Shown piece after piece: positions 12,774-63,255 of a DNA stretch of 64,000 nt (the first letter of the stretch is position 1; the number at the start of each line of letters is the position of its first letter). The stretch is taken from NCBI RefSeq assembly GCF_900187405.1, contig NZ_LT896716.1, positions 1,178,001 through 1,242,000 of the forward strand, read 5' to 3'. The position numbers and the translations under genes were made by a program. Origin of the DNA: Geobacter sp. DSM 9736. GTDB lineage: Bacteria > Desulfobacterota > Desulfuromonadia > Geobacterales > Geobacteraceae. The notes below the pieces were generated by a model, which was given only the letters and a program-made list of their open reading frames with translations, had not been told where the DNA came from and did no database searches.

Positions 12774-14087
12774 ATGTTACGTCTACAGTTTACCCTGGTT
12801 CAGAAGCTGATCGCCAGTTATGCCGCGATAGCGTTCTTTACCCTTGCAGCCCTGCTCTTCTCCATTACCGGCCTTTATTCCATTAACAAAACGGCACGGG
12901 ATATCGCCCATCACGACCTCGTCGTGATAAGCTCAGCCCAGAAACTGCGCGAGTCGCTTCTCGCACAGGAACGTGCTGCAGGCAGATATGGCATCCTGAA
13001 GAGCCCTGAGTTCATAGAGCTCTTCCGGCAGCGTCAAAGCGAGTTTCTCGAAACCGTCAGTGTCCTGGGCACGCGCAGCAAAGATCCTGAAGTGCTAAAA
13101 CTTGTGGCCTCTTACGAAAAATATCAGCATGTCATCGATGGCCTGTTCTCCGGCGCTGATGACCAGAGAGAAGTTCAGAAAGTTCTCACAGGTCAGCTCC
13201 TCAAGAGCATAGACAAGATATCTCTGAATGGACAACGGCAGCTCGATGTCAAACTTAAGAATGCAGAGAACAGGGAACGCTCTACTATACAAGCCACACT
13301 CTTTCTATCCTTTTCCGGATTTCTGCTGGCTGCTGGGGTAGCAGCCTACGCTGTGTACACCATATCAAGATCTATCAGGAAGCTTAAGCGTGCCACTCAT
13401 CGCATAGCCGAAGGCGATTTCGACTACGATCCCCAAATTCCCCCAGGAGATGAAGTAGGAGATCTTGCACGGGATTTCACCTCCATGGCGGCTCGTCTCA
13501 AGGTTCTCGAGCAGATGAGCCTGGACGCGAGCCCTTTAACCCGGCTCCCGGGGAATATAGCCATCGAACGCGTACTTAGCAAGCGTCTGGCAAGCAATGA
13601 GCTATTTGCAGTCTGCTACGTTGATCTTGATAACTTCAAGGCATACAATGATCGTTACGGCTACATAAAAGCCAGCGAAGTAATAAAAATGACGGCAGAA
13701 ATAGTTTATGAAGCTGTTGGAGCACTTAACGAGGAAGATTCATTTGTCGGTCATGTAGGTGGAGACGACTTCATCATTGTGGTCTCCTCGGATAATGCAG
13801 CCCCTGTTTGCGAGAATGTCATCAGCACCTTCGACCGGGAAATCCGCGGACACTATAGCGCGGAAGACCTCGCAAAAGGAGCAATAGAAGGAGCTGACCG
13901 ATATGGCGTCCATAGAATATTTCCTATAATGACGATATCCATTGCAGCAATAATTTGCCAGAAGGGCCTTTATGATTCCGCAGTCGATATTGCGAAAAAT
14001 GCAGCGGACATGAAAGAGTTTCTGAAGGCAAAGCCGGGCAGCAACTACTACATCAACAGGCGTACCCATCAAAGATGCGAACACTGA
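12774..14087 (+). CDS. Membrane HAMP-GGDEF nucleotide cyclase, candidate Hypr (cGAMP) type
   Basis: The 437-aa protein has a membrane helix at about residues 13-35, a ~135-residue helical sensor region, a second helix at about 170-195, a HAMP domain at about 196-247 and a GGDEF domain to the end. The signature motif is GGDDF (residues 329-333), with the related LPGN and VGHVGGDDF context. No RxxD inhibitory site precedes it. The key oddity is residue 301: diguanylate cyclases have N-D...G-D, where the second Asp reads the guanine base, but here the segment is NDRYGYIKASEV, with Ser at that position. Asp-to-Ser at this site is the hallmark reported for Geobacter hybrid-promiscuous GGDEFs that make 3',3'-cGAMP. 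It overlaps the next gene by 13 nt. Confidence 0.85.
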   Translation: MLRLQFTLVQKLIASYAAIAFFTLAALLFSITGLYSINKTARDIAHHDLVVISSAQKLRESLLAQERAAGRYGILKSPEFIELFRQRQSEFLETVSVLGTRSKDPEVLKLVASYEKYQHVIDGLFSGADDQREVQKVLTGQLLKSIDKISLNGQRQLDVKLKNAENRERSTIQATLFLSFSGFLLAAGVAAYAVYTISRSIRKLKRATHRIAEGDFDYDPQIPPGDEVGDLARDFTSMAARLKVLEQMSLDASPLTRLPGNIAIERVLSKRLASNELFAVCYVDLDNFKAYNDRYGYIKASEVIKMTAEIVYEAVGALNEEDSFVGHVGGDDFIIVVSSDNAAPVCENVISTFDREIRGHYSAEDLAKGAIEGADRYGVHRIFPIMTISIAAIICQKGLYDSAVDIAKNAADMKEFLKAKPGSNYYINRRTHQRCEH

Positions 14088-34574: not shown

Positions 34575-34693
34575 GGTTGTTGAAAAACAGCCATCTTGCC
34601 GCCGTCCTCGAAAGCCCCCGTGTGCGGCGTAGCGCTGCTACGCCTCCGTGGGGCTTCCTGCGGGTGCGACAACCTGGCTGTTTTTGAACAACC
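34575..34693 (+). repeat. Dispersed palindromic repeat, copy A
   Basis: A 119-bp element with long terminal inverted arms (ggttgttgaaaaacagcca / tggctgtttttgaacaacc) and an inner hairpin gcgtag-cgctg-ctacgc. It lies between greA and the first carB. Five related copies occur in the window. Confidence 0.85.
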
Positions 34694-34739
34694 TGAGTGT
34701 CGTATGCTACCAAGAGTGTTCGTAAGCTATCAAACTGAG

Positions 34740-46598: not shown

Positions 46599-47186
<588 letters not shown>

Positions 47187-50051: not shown

Positions 50052-50342
50052 ATGTTAAGCGGTAAGCAGAAACGGTTCCTGAGAGGGCTCGGCCATTCCC
50101 TCAAGCCTGTTATTCTTGTCGGAAAGGGAGAGGTAGATGAGGGGCTCATTGCTGAGACAGGTGAGGCACTCGCTTTTCATGAGCTGATAAAGGTCAAGGT
50201 GCTCGAAAGCTGCCTGATGGAGAAAACAGAGGTGGCTCAGGCCATTGCCGTAGCGTGCGGAGCTGAGGTTGCCCAGATCCTCGGCCGCACCATCCTGCTC
50301 TACAAACAGAGCAAGGAACGGAAGATTGAACTTCCACGGTAA
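50052..50342 (+). CDS. yhbY: CRM-domain RNA-binding protein YhbY
   Basis: The 96-aa protein is a single CRS1/YhbY domain with the signature LSGKQKRFLRGLGHSLKPVI, the GxxG-like LVGKGEVDEGL and KVLESC. It binds pre-50S ribosomes. An aaggac ribosome-binding site is present, and a perfect terminator follows. Confidence 0.95.
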   Translation: MLSGKQKRFLRGLGHSLKPVILVGKGEVDEGLIAETGEALAFHELIKVKVLESCLMEKTEVAQAIAVACGAEVAQILGRTILLYKQSKERKIELPR

Positions 50343-50345
50343 AGA

Positions 50346-50371
50346 AAGGCGGAGCTCCCGCTCCGCCTTTT
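50346..50371. terminator. Intrinsic terminator after yhbY
   Basis: An 11-bp stem aaaggcggagc / gctccgccttt with loop tccc and TTTT. It also ends the convergent exported-protein transcript. Confidence 0.88.
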
Positions 50372-50375
50372 CTGG

Positions 50376-51005
50376 TCAGTCGTCGTCACGACCATGTTTG
50401 TGACGCTTACGTTCTTGCTTCTCCGCTTGCTTGATTTCCTTCCAGTTCTGGTGGTCGCCCCTGCGCCGGTCCTTCCAGTGGTCGTCATGATCGCCTCTGC
50501 GGCGGTCCTTGGAATGATCATGGTCATGCCTGCGATGTTCCCTCCACTCGGGACGGAAGTGACGGCCACGATAACGGTCCCTGTCGACTTCGTAGATGCG
50601 GACCTCCTGGTCGCGATAAGCTCGTATCCGGTCGAACTTGTGCCGGCGAAGCCCCGGGGGTAGGTGCTTGTATTTGACCCGCATCCACGGTCCGTCATAG
50701 TAGGATGCCCGGTACCAGCCGTTGTCTCTGTAGAGATAATAGGCCCCCGATACATAGAAAAGGTCGTAAGGTACGCCCACCGCAACGTAGAAACCAAGGC
50801 TGGGCGGAATGATGAACTCCGGAGGCTCCTCGATCACCACCACCGGCGGGGGTGCGGAAACAACAACGGGGGGCTGAGAGATCACCACAGGAGGGGGTGC
50901 GGAGGGTCGGTTTCCAACACTGACGTTAACGTCGAAACCGACATCCGATGCGTGGAGGGGGGCTGCGCAGAGCAGCAGGAGGGGGATAAGCGCTGCTTTC
51001 TTCAT
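50376..51005 (-). CDS. Exported basic/His-rich protein under riboswitch control
   Basis: The 209-aa protein has a signal peptide (MKKAALIPLLLLCAAPLHAS). A Pro/Val-rich linker follows, then a short core (VGVPYDLFYVSGAYYLYRDN, GWYRASYYDGPW) and a long Lys/Arg/His/Asp tail (residues ~125-209, e.g. KDRRRGDHDDHWKDRRRGD). It resembles small secreted proteins of Geobacter with a YXXXW-type core but no known role. Its mRNA begins with a cGAMP-type riboswitch, so it is presumably made only when cGAMP is present. The ribosome-binding site aggag lies 6 nt before the ATG. Confidence 0.78.
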   Translation of the reverse strand: MKKAALIPLLLLCAAPLHASDVGFDVNVSVGNRPSAPPPVVISQPPVVVSAPPPVVVIEEPPEFIIPPSLGFYVAVGVPYDLFYVSGAYYLYRDNGWYRASYYDGPWMRVKYKHLPPGLRRHKFDRIRAYRDQEVRIYEVDRDRYRGRHFRPEWREHRRHDHDHSKDRRRGDHDDHWKDRRRGDHQNWKEIKQAEKQERKRHKHGRDDD

Positions 51006-51050
51006 CTGGTCTCCTTTCTGTCATTCCCCGACTGCGTTTGCCGGAAAATG

Positions 51051-51095
51051 AAAAGCCGGGGCTAAAATATCGGTGGATATTTCGGCAACCCGGCT
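51051..51095 (-). terminator. Riboswitch-controlled terminator
   Basis: On the minus strand agccggg pairs with ccccggct and gaaatatc with gatatttt, followed by TTTTC. The 5' arm overlaps the 3' end of the aptamer (51076-51095), so the terminator and the bound aptamer are mutually exclusive. Confidence 0.8.
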
Positions 51096-51160
51096 GTCTC
51101 CTTGAGACCCTGTAGGCTTTCCGCCCCTCCCTCACAGGAGGTTTAGTATTATCGTGTATC
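51076..51160 (-). ncRNA. GEMM-Ib riboswitch aptamer (3',3'-cGAMP class)
   Basis: Read on the minus strand the sequence follows the GEMM-I aptamer order: P1 (gata / tatc), the conserved aaacc, P2 cctcct closed by the GNRA-type loop gtga, then ggaaagcc, P3 (gtctc / gagac) and agccgggttgccg. At the position equivalent to G20 of Vc2 it has A, the determinant of the cGAMP (Ib) subclass. It closely resembles the Geobacter metallireducens riboswitch used in structural work. Ligand binding should free the gene from the terminator. Confidence 0.92.
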
Positions 51161-51249
51161 ACCTTGCGGCTTTTGTTTATGTCGGATTGTAGATACTCCG
51201 AGTCGAGTCGCGAAGTCAAGGGTAAATTGCCGAACGGAAAGGGAGCGTA

Positions 51250-51444
51250 ATGAAAGAGGTGTATGTCGACCGGGAACAGTGCATCAGCTGCGGGCTCTGT
51301 GTTTCCCTCGTGCCGGAGGTCTTCCGGTTCGAAGAGGATAAGTCCATTGCCCACGACCCGCACGGGGCACCCGAGAACCGGATCCAGGAATGCGTCGACG
51401 GCTGCCCTGTCTCGGCCATCCATTGGCGGGAGGAGCAGGAATAA
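51250..51444 (+). CDS. Single-cluster 4Fe-4S ferredoxin
   Basis: The 64-aa protein has ECISCGLC-type ligands (EQCISCGLCVSL) and the distal ECVDGCPVSAIHW. It resembles mono-cluster ferredoxins of the Pyrococcus/Thermotoga type. A ribosome-binding site (aaggg-agcg) precedes the ATG. It is divergent from the riboswitch gene. Its electron partner is unknown. Confidence 0.9.
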   Translation: MKEVYVDREQCISCGLCVSLVPEVFRFEEDKSIAHDPHGAPENRIQECVDGCPVSAIHWREEQE

Positions 51445-51480
51445 GGTGCTCCGTTAGAACATCCGCCAGAAATCCAGGTC

Positions 51481-51595
51481 GCTCGAAAACAGCCAGGTCG
51501 TCGCACCCGCAGAAAGCCCCGCGGAGGCGTAGCAATGCTACGCTGCACAAGCCGGCTTTCGAGGACGGCGGCGAAATGGCTTTTTTTCAGCAACA
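51481..51595 (-). repeat. Dispersed palindromic repeat, copy D
   Basis: A 115-bp reverse copy (aaaacagccaggtcgtcgc ... tggctttttttcagcaac) between the convergent ferredoxin and dgt genes. One terminal arm is shortened. Confidence 0.75.
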
Positions 51596-51600
51596 TACTT

Positions 51601-63105: not shown

Positions 63106-63224
63106 ATTGTTGAAAAACAGTCATCTCGCCGCCGTCCTCGAAAGCCTCCGTGTGCGGCGTAGCGCTGCTACGCCTCCGTGGAGGCTTTCTGCGGGTTCGA
63201 CGATCTGACTATTTTTGAACAACC
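63106..63224 (+). repeat. Dispersed palindromic repeat, copy F
   Basis: A 119-bp forward copy (attgttgaaaaacagtca ... tgactatttttgaacaacc) after the glutamate synthase operon. Inner hairpin kept. Confidence 0.85.
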
Positions 63225-63255
63225 TGACTTTTCAATAGCCTCGTACAATTTCTAT

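Follow-up and report, generated by a model that had tools for sequence, protein, structure and literature searches.

A putative 3',3'-cGAMP riboswitch with an ON layout upstream of an exported WXXGXW protein gene in Geobacter sp. DSM 9736

Introduction

Which signal is read by the leader RNA that precedes a gene for an exported protein in Geobacter sp. DSM 9736, in which direction does it switch, and what would such a protein do under its control? The locus lies on the minus strand of a 64,000-nt stretch of contig NZ_LT896716.1 (hereinafter the window; all positions are those of the window unless a contig is named). A first-pass annotation, made from the sequence letters, had read the leader as a GEMM-Ib (3',3'-cGAMP) riboswitch with a built-in terminator. 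Here we compare that reading with its alternatives, using covariance-model searches, RNA folding and homologous loci across the Geobacteraceae.

Results

A full-length GEMM-I aptamer that carries the A-type specificity base

An Rfam cmscan of the whole window finds RF01051 (c-di-GMP-I/GEMM-I) at 51157-51081 on the minus strand, scoring 47.3 bits where the gathering score is 35 (E 4e-6), the alignment spanning the full model, positions 1-87; in a single-family RF01051 search of the genome, the same site is recovered at E 5.9e-8. The parts follow one another as the P1 strand GGUGAUA, J1/2, P2 (CCUCCU-GUGA-GGGAGG), GGCGGAAAGCC, P3 and AGCCGGGUUGCCG, the 3'-most stretch after P3 being AGCCGGGUUGCCGAAAUAUCCACC. 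Both the class and the order of parts given by the first-pass annotation are thereby confirmed, through the covariance-model check that it had itself proposed. P1 is closed by pairing of GAUA (51160-51157) with UAUC (51079-51076) and of GGU (51163-51161) with ACC (51074-51072).

The covariance-model alignment places A 51147 at Rfam position 11, which we take, by our own count along the Vc2 sequence, to be the equivalent of Vc2 G20; the A that had been claimed for this position is indeed there. The pocket residues are also present: A 51120 would lie between the two bases of the ligand and C 51085 would pair with its G half. The loop GUGA is of the GNRA type. The elements of the aptamer, all on the minus strand, are as follows.

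51157-51163, minus: 5' strand of P1 (GGUGAUA), from the sequence and a constrained fold
51081-51157, minus: GEMM-I aptamer, RF01051
51147, minus: specificity base A (Rfam position 11; Vc2 G20; pilM-type A14), from the covariance-model alignment
51126-51141, minus: P2 with GUGA tetraloop, from the covariance-model alignment and covariation
51085, minus: ligand-pairing C (pilM C75), inside the 5' half of the terminator hairpin, from the covariance-model alignment, with its role from PMC6274999 and PMC9262584

These two sources describe the roles of the ligand-pocket residues, including the pairing of pilM C75 with the ligand, and a third, with in-line probing, links G at the ligand-contacting base to c-di-GMP and A to c-AMP-GMP (PMC9481103). 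The A-type riboswitches upstream of pgcA and at Gm0970 are reported to be about 1200-fold (PMC6456294) and about 1600-fold (PMC8835794) selective for cGAMP, respectively. The omcST riboswitch is reported to respond to both cGAMP and c-di-GMP (PMC6456294), so that an A alone is no proof of selectivity. The predicted cGAMP preference of the window riboswitch rests on the published base rule. Compared with the GEMM-Ia (c-di-GMP-I) riboswitch Vc2, the window RNA has the same RF01051 architecture but A instead of G at the specificity position.

The aptamer 3' end doubles as the 5' arm of a terminator

Around the aptamer, the locus contains the following elements.

51190-51219, minus: candidate promoter (TTGACT 51219-51214, TATCTA 51195-51190, spacing 18), read by eye; weak
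51054-51095, minus: intrinsic terminator hairpin that shares the 3' end of the aptamer (-21.3 kcal/mol, z -5.43)
51011-51016, minus: Shine-Dalgarno sequence AAGGAG
50376-51005, minus: regulated gene, encoding a 209-residue exported protein with one WXXGXW stretch (PF12779), a predicted beta core and a basic, His-rich helical tail

The candidate promoter, which lies upstream of the aptamer, is graded weak because a consensus scan of 50300-51600 gave no promoter on the minus strand; the Shine-Dalgarno sequence is followed by the ATG of the regulated gene at 51005. The terminator hairpin pairs AGCCGGG with CCCGGCU and the AAAUAUC part with GAUAUUU, and its energy compares with a mean of -8.6 kcal/mol for shuffled sequences, 0 of 200 shuffles being as good. 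The hairpin is absent among the four terminator-like sites of a simple consensus scan, and the tract on its 3' side is short (UUUU-CA-UUUU). The earlier claim of a terminator that shares the aptamer 3' end and runs into T's is therefore upheld, with the T tract a short one.

The stretch AGCCGGGUUGCCGAAAUAUCCACC has two pairing states, belonging to P3 and P1 in the aptamer and to the 5' arm in the terminator. Because the aptamer 3' end is the terminator 5' arm, the two structures are mutually exclusive, which is an ON layout. When the full leader is folded without ligand, the minimum free energy is -43.8 kcal/mol with the terminator versus -29.3 kcal/mol with the aptamer pairs enforced; the ligand-free full-length RNA thus favours the terminator by about 14 kcal/mol, and the choice must fall during transcription. 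An ON mechanism is published for the pilM riboswitch (PMC9262584), and the GEMM-Ib (c-AMP-GMP) riboswitches of Geobacter (pgcA, GSU1761, Gm0970 and pilM) share with the window RNA both the aptamer with A at the Vc2-G20 position and the ON layout with a terminator made from aptamer strands. The switch itself is ordinary for the Geobacteraceae and belongs to a known kind of system. The opposite sign, in which ligand would promote termination as in Cd1 of C. difficile, is scarcely credible: GEMM-I members of both signs exist (PMC9262584), but here the terminator is built from aptamer strands that include the ligand-pairing C region, so that a bound aptamer and the terminator cannot coexist.

The riboswitch recurs upstream of homologous genes

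Homologues of the exported protein occur in at least 46 of the 48 Geobacteraceae genomes searched, the source genome included. Of the matches listed, we examined 90 homologues, drawn from 45 genomes: the 81 at E <= 1e-30 plus the nine that rank next. The upstream sequence is usable for 88 of them, L124 and L028 being the exceptions. Rfam scans place a GEMM-I RNA upstream and on the same strand of 33 of the 90 (33 of the 88), in 28 genomes, at a distance of 64-240 nt in 32 cases and of 729 nt in one (L031), which is counted among the 33. Three cases are left out of this count: L035, where the GEMM-I lies downstream of the gene; L030, the second gene behind the riboswitch already counted for L070 on the same contig; and a GEMM-I on contig C70 of G035, which stands some 230 nt ahead of a match that is weak and partial. 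By simple arithmetic, with 12 RNAs in 3.96 Mb, chance alone would put a GEMM-I into roughly 0.04% of upstream stretches of 250 nt. Among the matches listed, the riboswitch precedes the exported-protein gene in 11 of the 14 Geobacteraceae genera searched (10 without the 729-nt case), and the specificity base is A in all 33, the window's included, compared with 108 of the 145 GEMM-I RNAs of the eight-genome survey described below. The L070/L030 locus (G037 C170) carries two tandem homologues behind a single A-type GEMM-I.

The association is not universal. Rfam scans find no GEMM-I for 55 of the 88 homologues with usable upstream sequence, indicating that the protein family is not cGAMP-dependent everywhere, and in genus g6 the riboswitch stands before the gene in only 5 of 19 genomes. 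On a protein tree with weakly supported forks, into which proteins with an internal stop were entered with X at that position, the riboswitch label requires 9 changes versus 27 in shuffles, gains and losses taken together. The dgt-[ferredoxin]-riboswitch-gene-yhbY neighbourhood is partly kept: among 33 loci that have sequence to either side, 13 carry both dgt and yhbY, in six genera, two of the 13 (L014 and L021) being apparently one contig.

The ON layout is kept along with the aptamer. In all 33 homologue leaders, the 3' strand of the aptamer is complementary to a segment that lies further downstream, ahead of a T run: 10-13 pairs form between the two, with z values of -2.3 to -5.6 relative to shuffles of the downstream part (segments ending at the first run of four T's). 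Together with the constrained folds, this bears out the ON layout proposed at first. The 3' arm of the terminator varies by clade: the window has CCCCGGC, three of the four members of genus g5 have CGGCAAUGCGGC and the five of genus g6 have CGGCAACCC; that the complement is kept by differing 3' arms supports a function. The source genome contains at least 13 RF01051 matches, at least 12 of them above gathering, with A at the specificity position in nine (L003-L010 and L012), G in two (L001 and L011) and C in one (L002); the genome searches scored the first 150 candidates per genome, and these counts are lower bounds. In the same terminator test, the non-A-type RNAs of the source genome (L001, L002, L011 and the sub-threshold L013) give z values of -1.6 to 0.5 and, unlike the window riboswitch, show no overlapping terminator.

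Covariation was examined in 32 homologue leaders (29 distinct), L031 being excluded for its length. Pairing is present in 98.2% of the cells, compared with 94.7% in shuffles and 34.5-54.5% when the structure is slid, and 28 cells are changed on both sides versus 7.9 in shuffles, with 0 of 500 as high; the two-sided changes are located at four of the six P2 pairs and at one P3 pair. For the whole structure, none of the 500 shuffles reaches the observed values of cells paired, two-sided cells or covariation score. Two further measures are not exceptional: 5 pairs show a two-sided change vs 3.8 in shuffles (100 of 500 as high), and further pair types number 11 vs 9.9 (136 of 500 as high). The ligand pocket is unchanged across the 29 distinct leaders of the gene family, and the other A-type members, in the genome as well as in the family, have aptamers near-identical to that of the window.

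These data bear on whether the window RNA could be a decayed, non-switching copy that leaves nothing more than a leaky terminator in the leader. The short U tract would fit such decay, as would the presence of at least nine A-type copies in the genome, of which one could be spare. Set against this are the P2 covariation and the unchanged pocket, the full-length match to the covariance model and the complementary 3' arm in every one of the 33 leaders, and we regard decay as very improbable.

Putative sources of cGAMP and the choice of ligand

The source genome has 20 GGDEF matches, 18 of which carry the canonical Asp (two read by eye). In L061, a REC-GAF-GGDEF protein, Ser takes the place of this Asp at the Hypr position, and the best PDB match is 6D9M (GacA Hypr GGDEF) at 228.7 bits, the next scoring 108; the eLife paper gives 6D9M as its own deposit of a Geobacter GGDEF fusion (PMC6456294). 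Judged by these sequence features, L061 is a GacA relative and the putative cGAMP synthase of the genome. The window encodes a further candidate.

12774-14087, plus: candidate second cGAMP cyclase, a HAMP-GGDDF protein whose Hypr position holds Ser (in NDRYGYIKAS, read by eye)

GSU1937, the second cGAMP cyclase of G. sulfurreducens, has the same HAMP, GGDDF and Ser features (PMC8835794), by which alone the likeness is judged. The candidate cyclase and the riboswitch thus both lie in one 64-kb window.

The RF01051 family is named for c-di-GMP, and with 18 canonical GGDEF matches c-di-GMP is surely present in the cell. A GEMM-I ON switch whose working cellular ligand is c-di-GMP, or both dinucleotides as reported for omcST (PMC6456294), therefore has to be weighed. 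Against it speak the A at 51147, the near-identity of the aptamer to the other A-type members and the high cGAMP selectivity published for Gm0970 (PMC8835794) and pgcA (PMC6456294), and we consider it unlikely.

On the sequence evidence, the window RNA is very probably a transcriptional ON switch of the GEMM-Ib (3',3'-cGAMP) class, and this mechanism assignment is about as strong as sequence allows. In the mechanism that we propose, cGAMP would be supplied by the GacA relative and perhaps also by the HAMP-GGDDF protein. Upon binding of cGAMP to the nascent aptamer, P1 and P3 would hold the AGCCGGGUUGCCGAAAUAUC strand, the terminator could not form and the exported WXXGXW protein would be made. 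When cGAMP is absent, the terminator would form and the transcript would stop some 50 nt short of the start codon, leaving the gene off.

The downstream gene encodes a basic, His-rich exported protein

The protein carries a predicted Sec signal peptide (MKKAALIPLLLLCAAPLHA, read from the sequence) and no Cys after residue 20. It is basic (pI 9.6) and contains 13 His, nine of them within the last 59 residues, in agreement with its first description as an exported basic, His-rich target other than a cytochrome. A conserved core of about residues 57-152 includes the single WXXGXW stretch, and the basic C-terminal tail is predicted as one long helix. The PF12779 score is 18.5 bits against a curated cut-off of 18, with one repeat stretch where the family criterion is two copies, a borderline match to the PF12779 WXXGXW repeat proteins. 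The protein has in addition an N-terminal portion rich in proline and a C-terminal one that is basic and helical.

An AlphaFold2 model built from four sequences (mean pLDDT 66, with blocks 61-150 at 82-89) consists of a beta core and a long C-terminal helix. Foldseek with this model gave no match at E <= 0.001, sequence-profile searches gave no PDB chain at E <= 1, and no NCBIfam family was found at E <= 0.1. In VIA-align 2, the core drew polo-box-like rows at Z 2.5-4.8 and the tail drew single helices at Z up to 5.3; we judged these uninformative. The literature retrieved on WXXGXW, YXWGXW or PF12779 proteins includes none with Geobacter in the title. The protein may have a structural role at the surface or in the periplasm, and we infer that it most likely belongs to the envelope or the extracellular matrix, as part of a cGAMP-controlled mineral-contact programme in Geobacter.

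Recurrent target groups behind GEMM-I RNAs

To the Geobacter GEMM-Ib riboswitches compared above belong known targets that are cytochrome or pilus genes, and the window riboswitch differs from these in preceding an exported WXXGXW protein gene. For G. sulfurreducens, the published GEMM-Ib targets include lipoprotein transpeptidases, cytochromes and pil genes as well as "multiple hypothetical genes", with every one of them declining in a gacA deletion (eLife 2019, PMC6456294), and GEMM-I genes named elsewhere are gsu1556, gsu1948, gsu1018, gsu1945 and omcS (PMC10599522).

We surveyed at least 145 GEMM-I RNAs above gathering (108 with A, 36 with G and 1 with C at the specificity position) in eight genomes of seven genera, hand-picked from 15 scanned; four sub-gathering matches are excluded (one in G000, two in G029 and one in G033). 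Since the downstream gene was picked mechanically, as the longest ORF starting within 650 nt, the cluster counts are approximate. A LysM-YkuD L,D-transpeptidase (by Pfam of one member) is found downstream of GEMM-I in all eight genomes. Seven of the eight have dockerin/FnIII-like proteins in this position (fn3 being under its cut-off in the member scanned), seven a DUF4382 protein and seven the exported-protein family, the last behind 10 RNAs that all have A. A cytochrome-containing cluster and a predicted outer-membrane-barrel-like protein, the latter read by eye from the sequence, each occur in five of eight. The commonest downstream groups are thus not cytochromes.

The suggestion of the first-pass annotation that this target would widen the known cGAMP regulon proves overstated, because hypothetical genes and transpeptidases are already published targets (PMC6456294) and the commonest groups surveyed are not cytochromes; an orthologue of the exported protein may itself be among the published "hypothetical" targets. 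What is added here is that the target is recurrent across the Geobacteraceae and A-type in all 33 cases with a GEMM-I upstream, so that the gene may well belong to a core of surface genes under cGAMP control. Through the RNA switch, cGAMP signalling is linked to a widely conserved, uncharacterised exported protein, which offers a concrete deletion candidate for the role of cGAMP in growth on metal oxides beyond cytochromes.

Tentatively, and with rather more doubt than confidence, these results might be read together as placing the exported WXXGXW protein in a small core set of conserved envelope proteins that cGAMP induces, surface remodelling being the primary object of control by cGAMP. Such a core would consist of the WXXGXW protein, the L,D-transpeptidase, the dockerin/FnIII-like proteins and the DUF4382 lipoprotein, switched on together in the Geobacteraceae. 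If so, cGAMP would mainly steer remodelling of the cell surface for mineral contact, cytochromes would form the more variable part of the regulon, and the exported protein would serve as a basic scaffold or anchor, so far uncharacterised, that the cell needs for contact with Fe(III) oxide.

Other RNA elements and repeats

An A-type GEMM-I (L007 1501-1577) is followed 83 nt later by a G-type one (L001 1501-1589) at G000 C1:1681420-1681668, upstream of a dockerin/FnIII-like gene, A being the cGAMP type and G the c-di-GMP type. The A-then-G order, with gaps of 83-141 nt, appears in four of the eight surveyed genomes (G000, G008, G013 and G040) before different gene groups, and accounts for 4 of 22 adjacent GEMM-I pairs picked by eye, none of which is G-then-A. 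Such a tandem is possibly a two-messenger gate; the combination is not among the tandem riboswitches described in the available text of PMC9481103.

The sole C-type RNA among the 145 surveyed is L002 (1587-1501, minus; G000 C1:2815505-2815591). An exact pattern derived from this RNA matched in 0 of 46 other genomes searched, and no overlapping terminator is seen. The gene behind it would encode an omcS-like multihaem cytochrome.

An interspersed repeat, about 120 bp long and containing a GCGTAGCATTGCTACGC palindrome, lies at 51470-51600, 34576-34695 and 63107-63226 of the window, where it has no Rfam match above gathering. It has at least 43 matches in the source genome (40 of 116 candidates scored) and occurs in 15 of 29 family genomes, the source genome included. 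Finally, a PyrR-binding-site leader (RF00515; 47189-47293, minus) scores 55.4 bits against a gathering score of 54, and the gene behind it, at 46599-47171, is pyrR by reading of its sequence.
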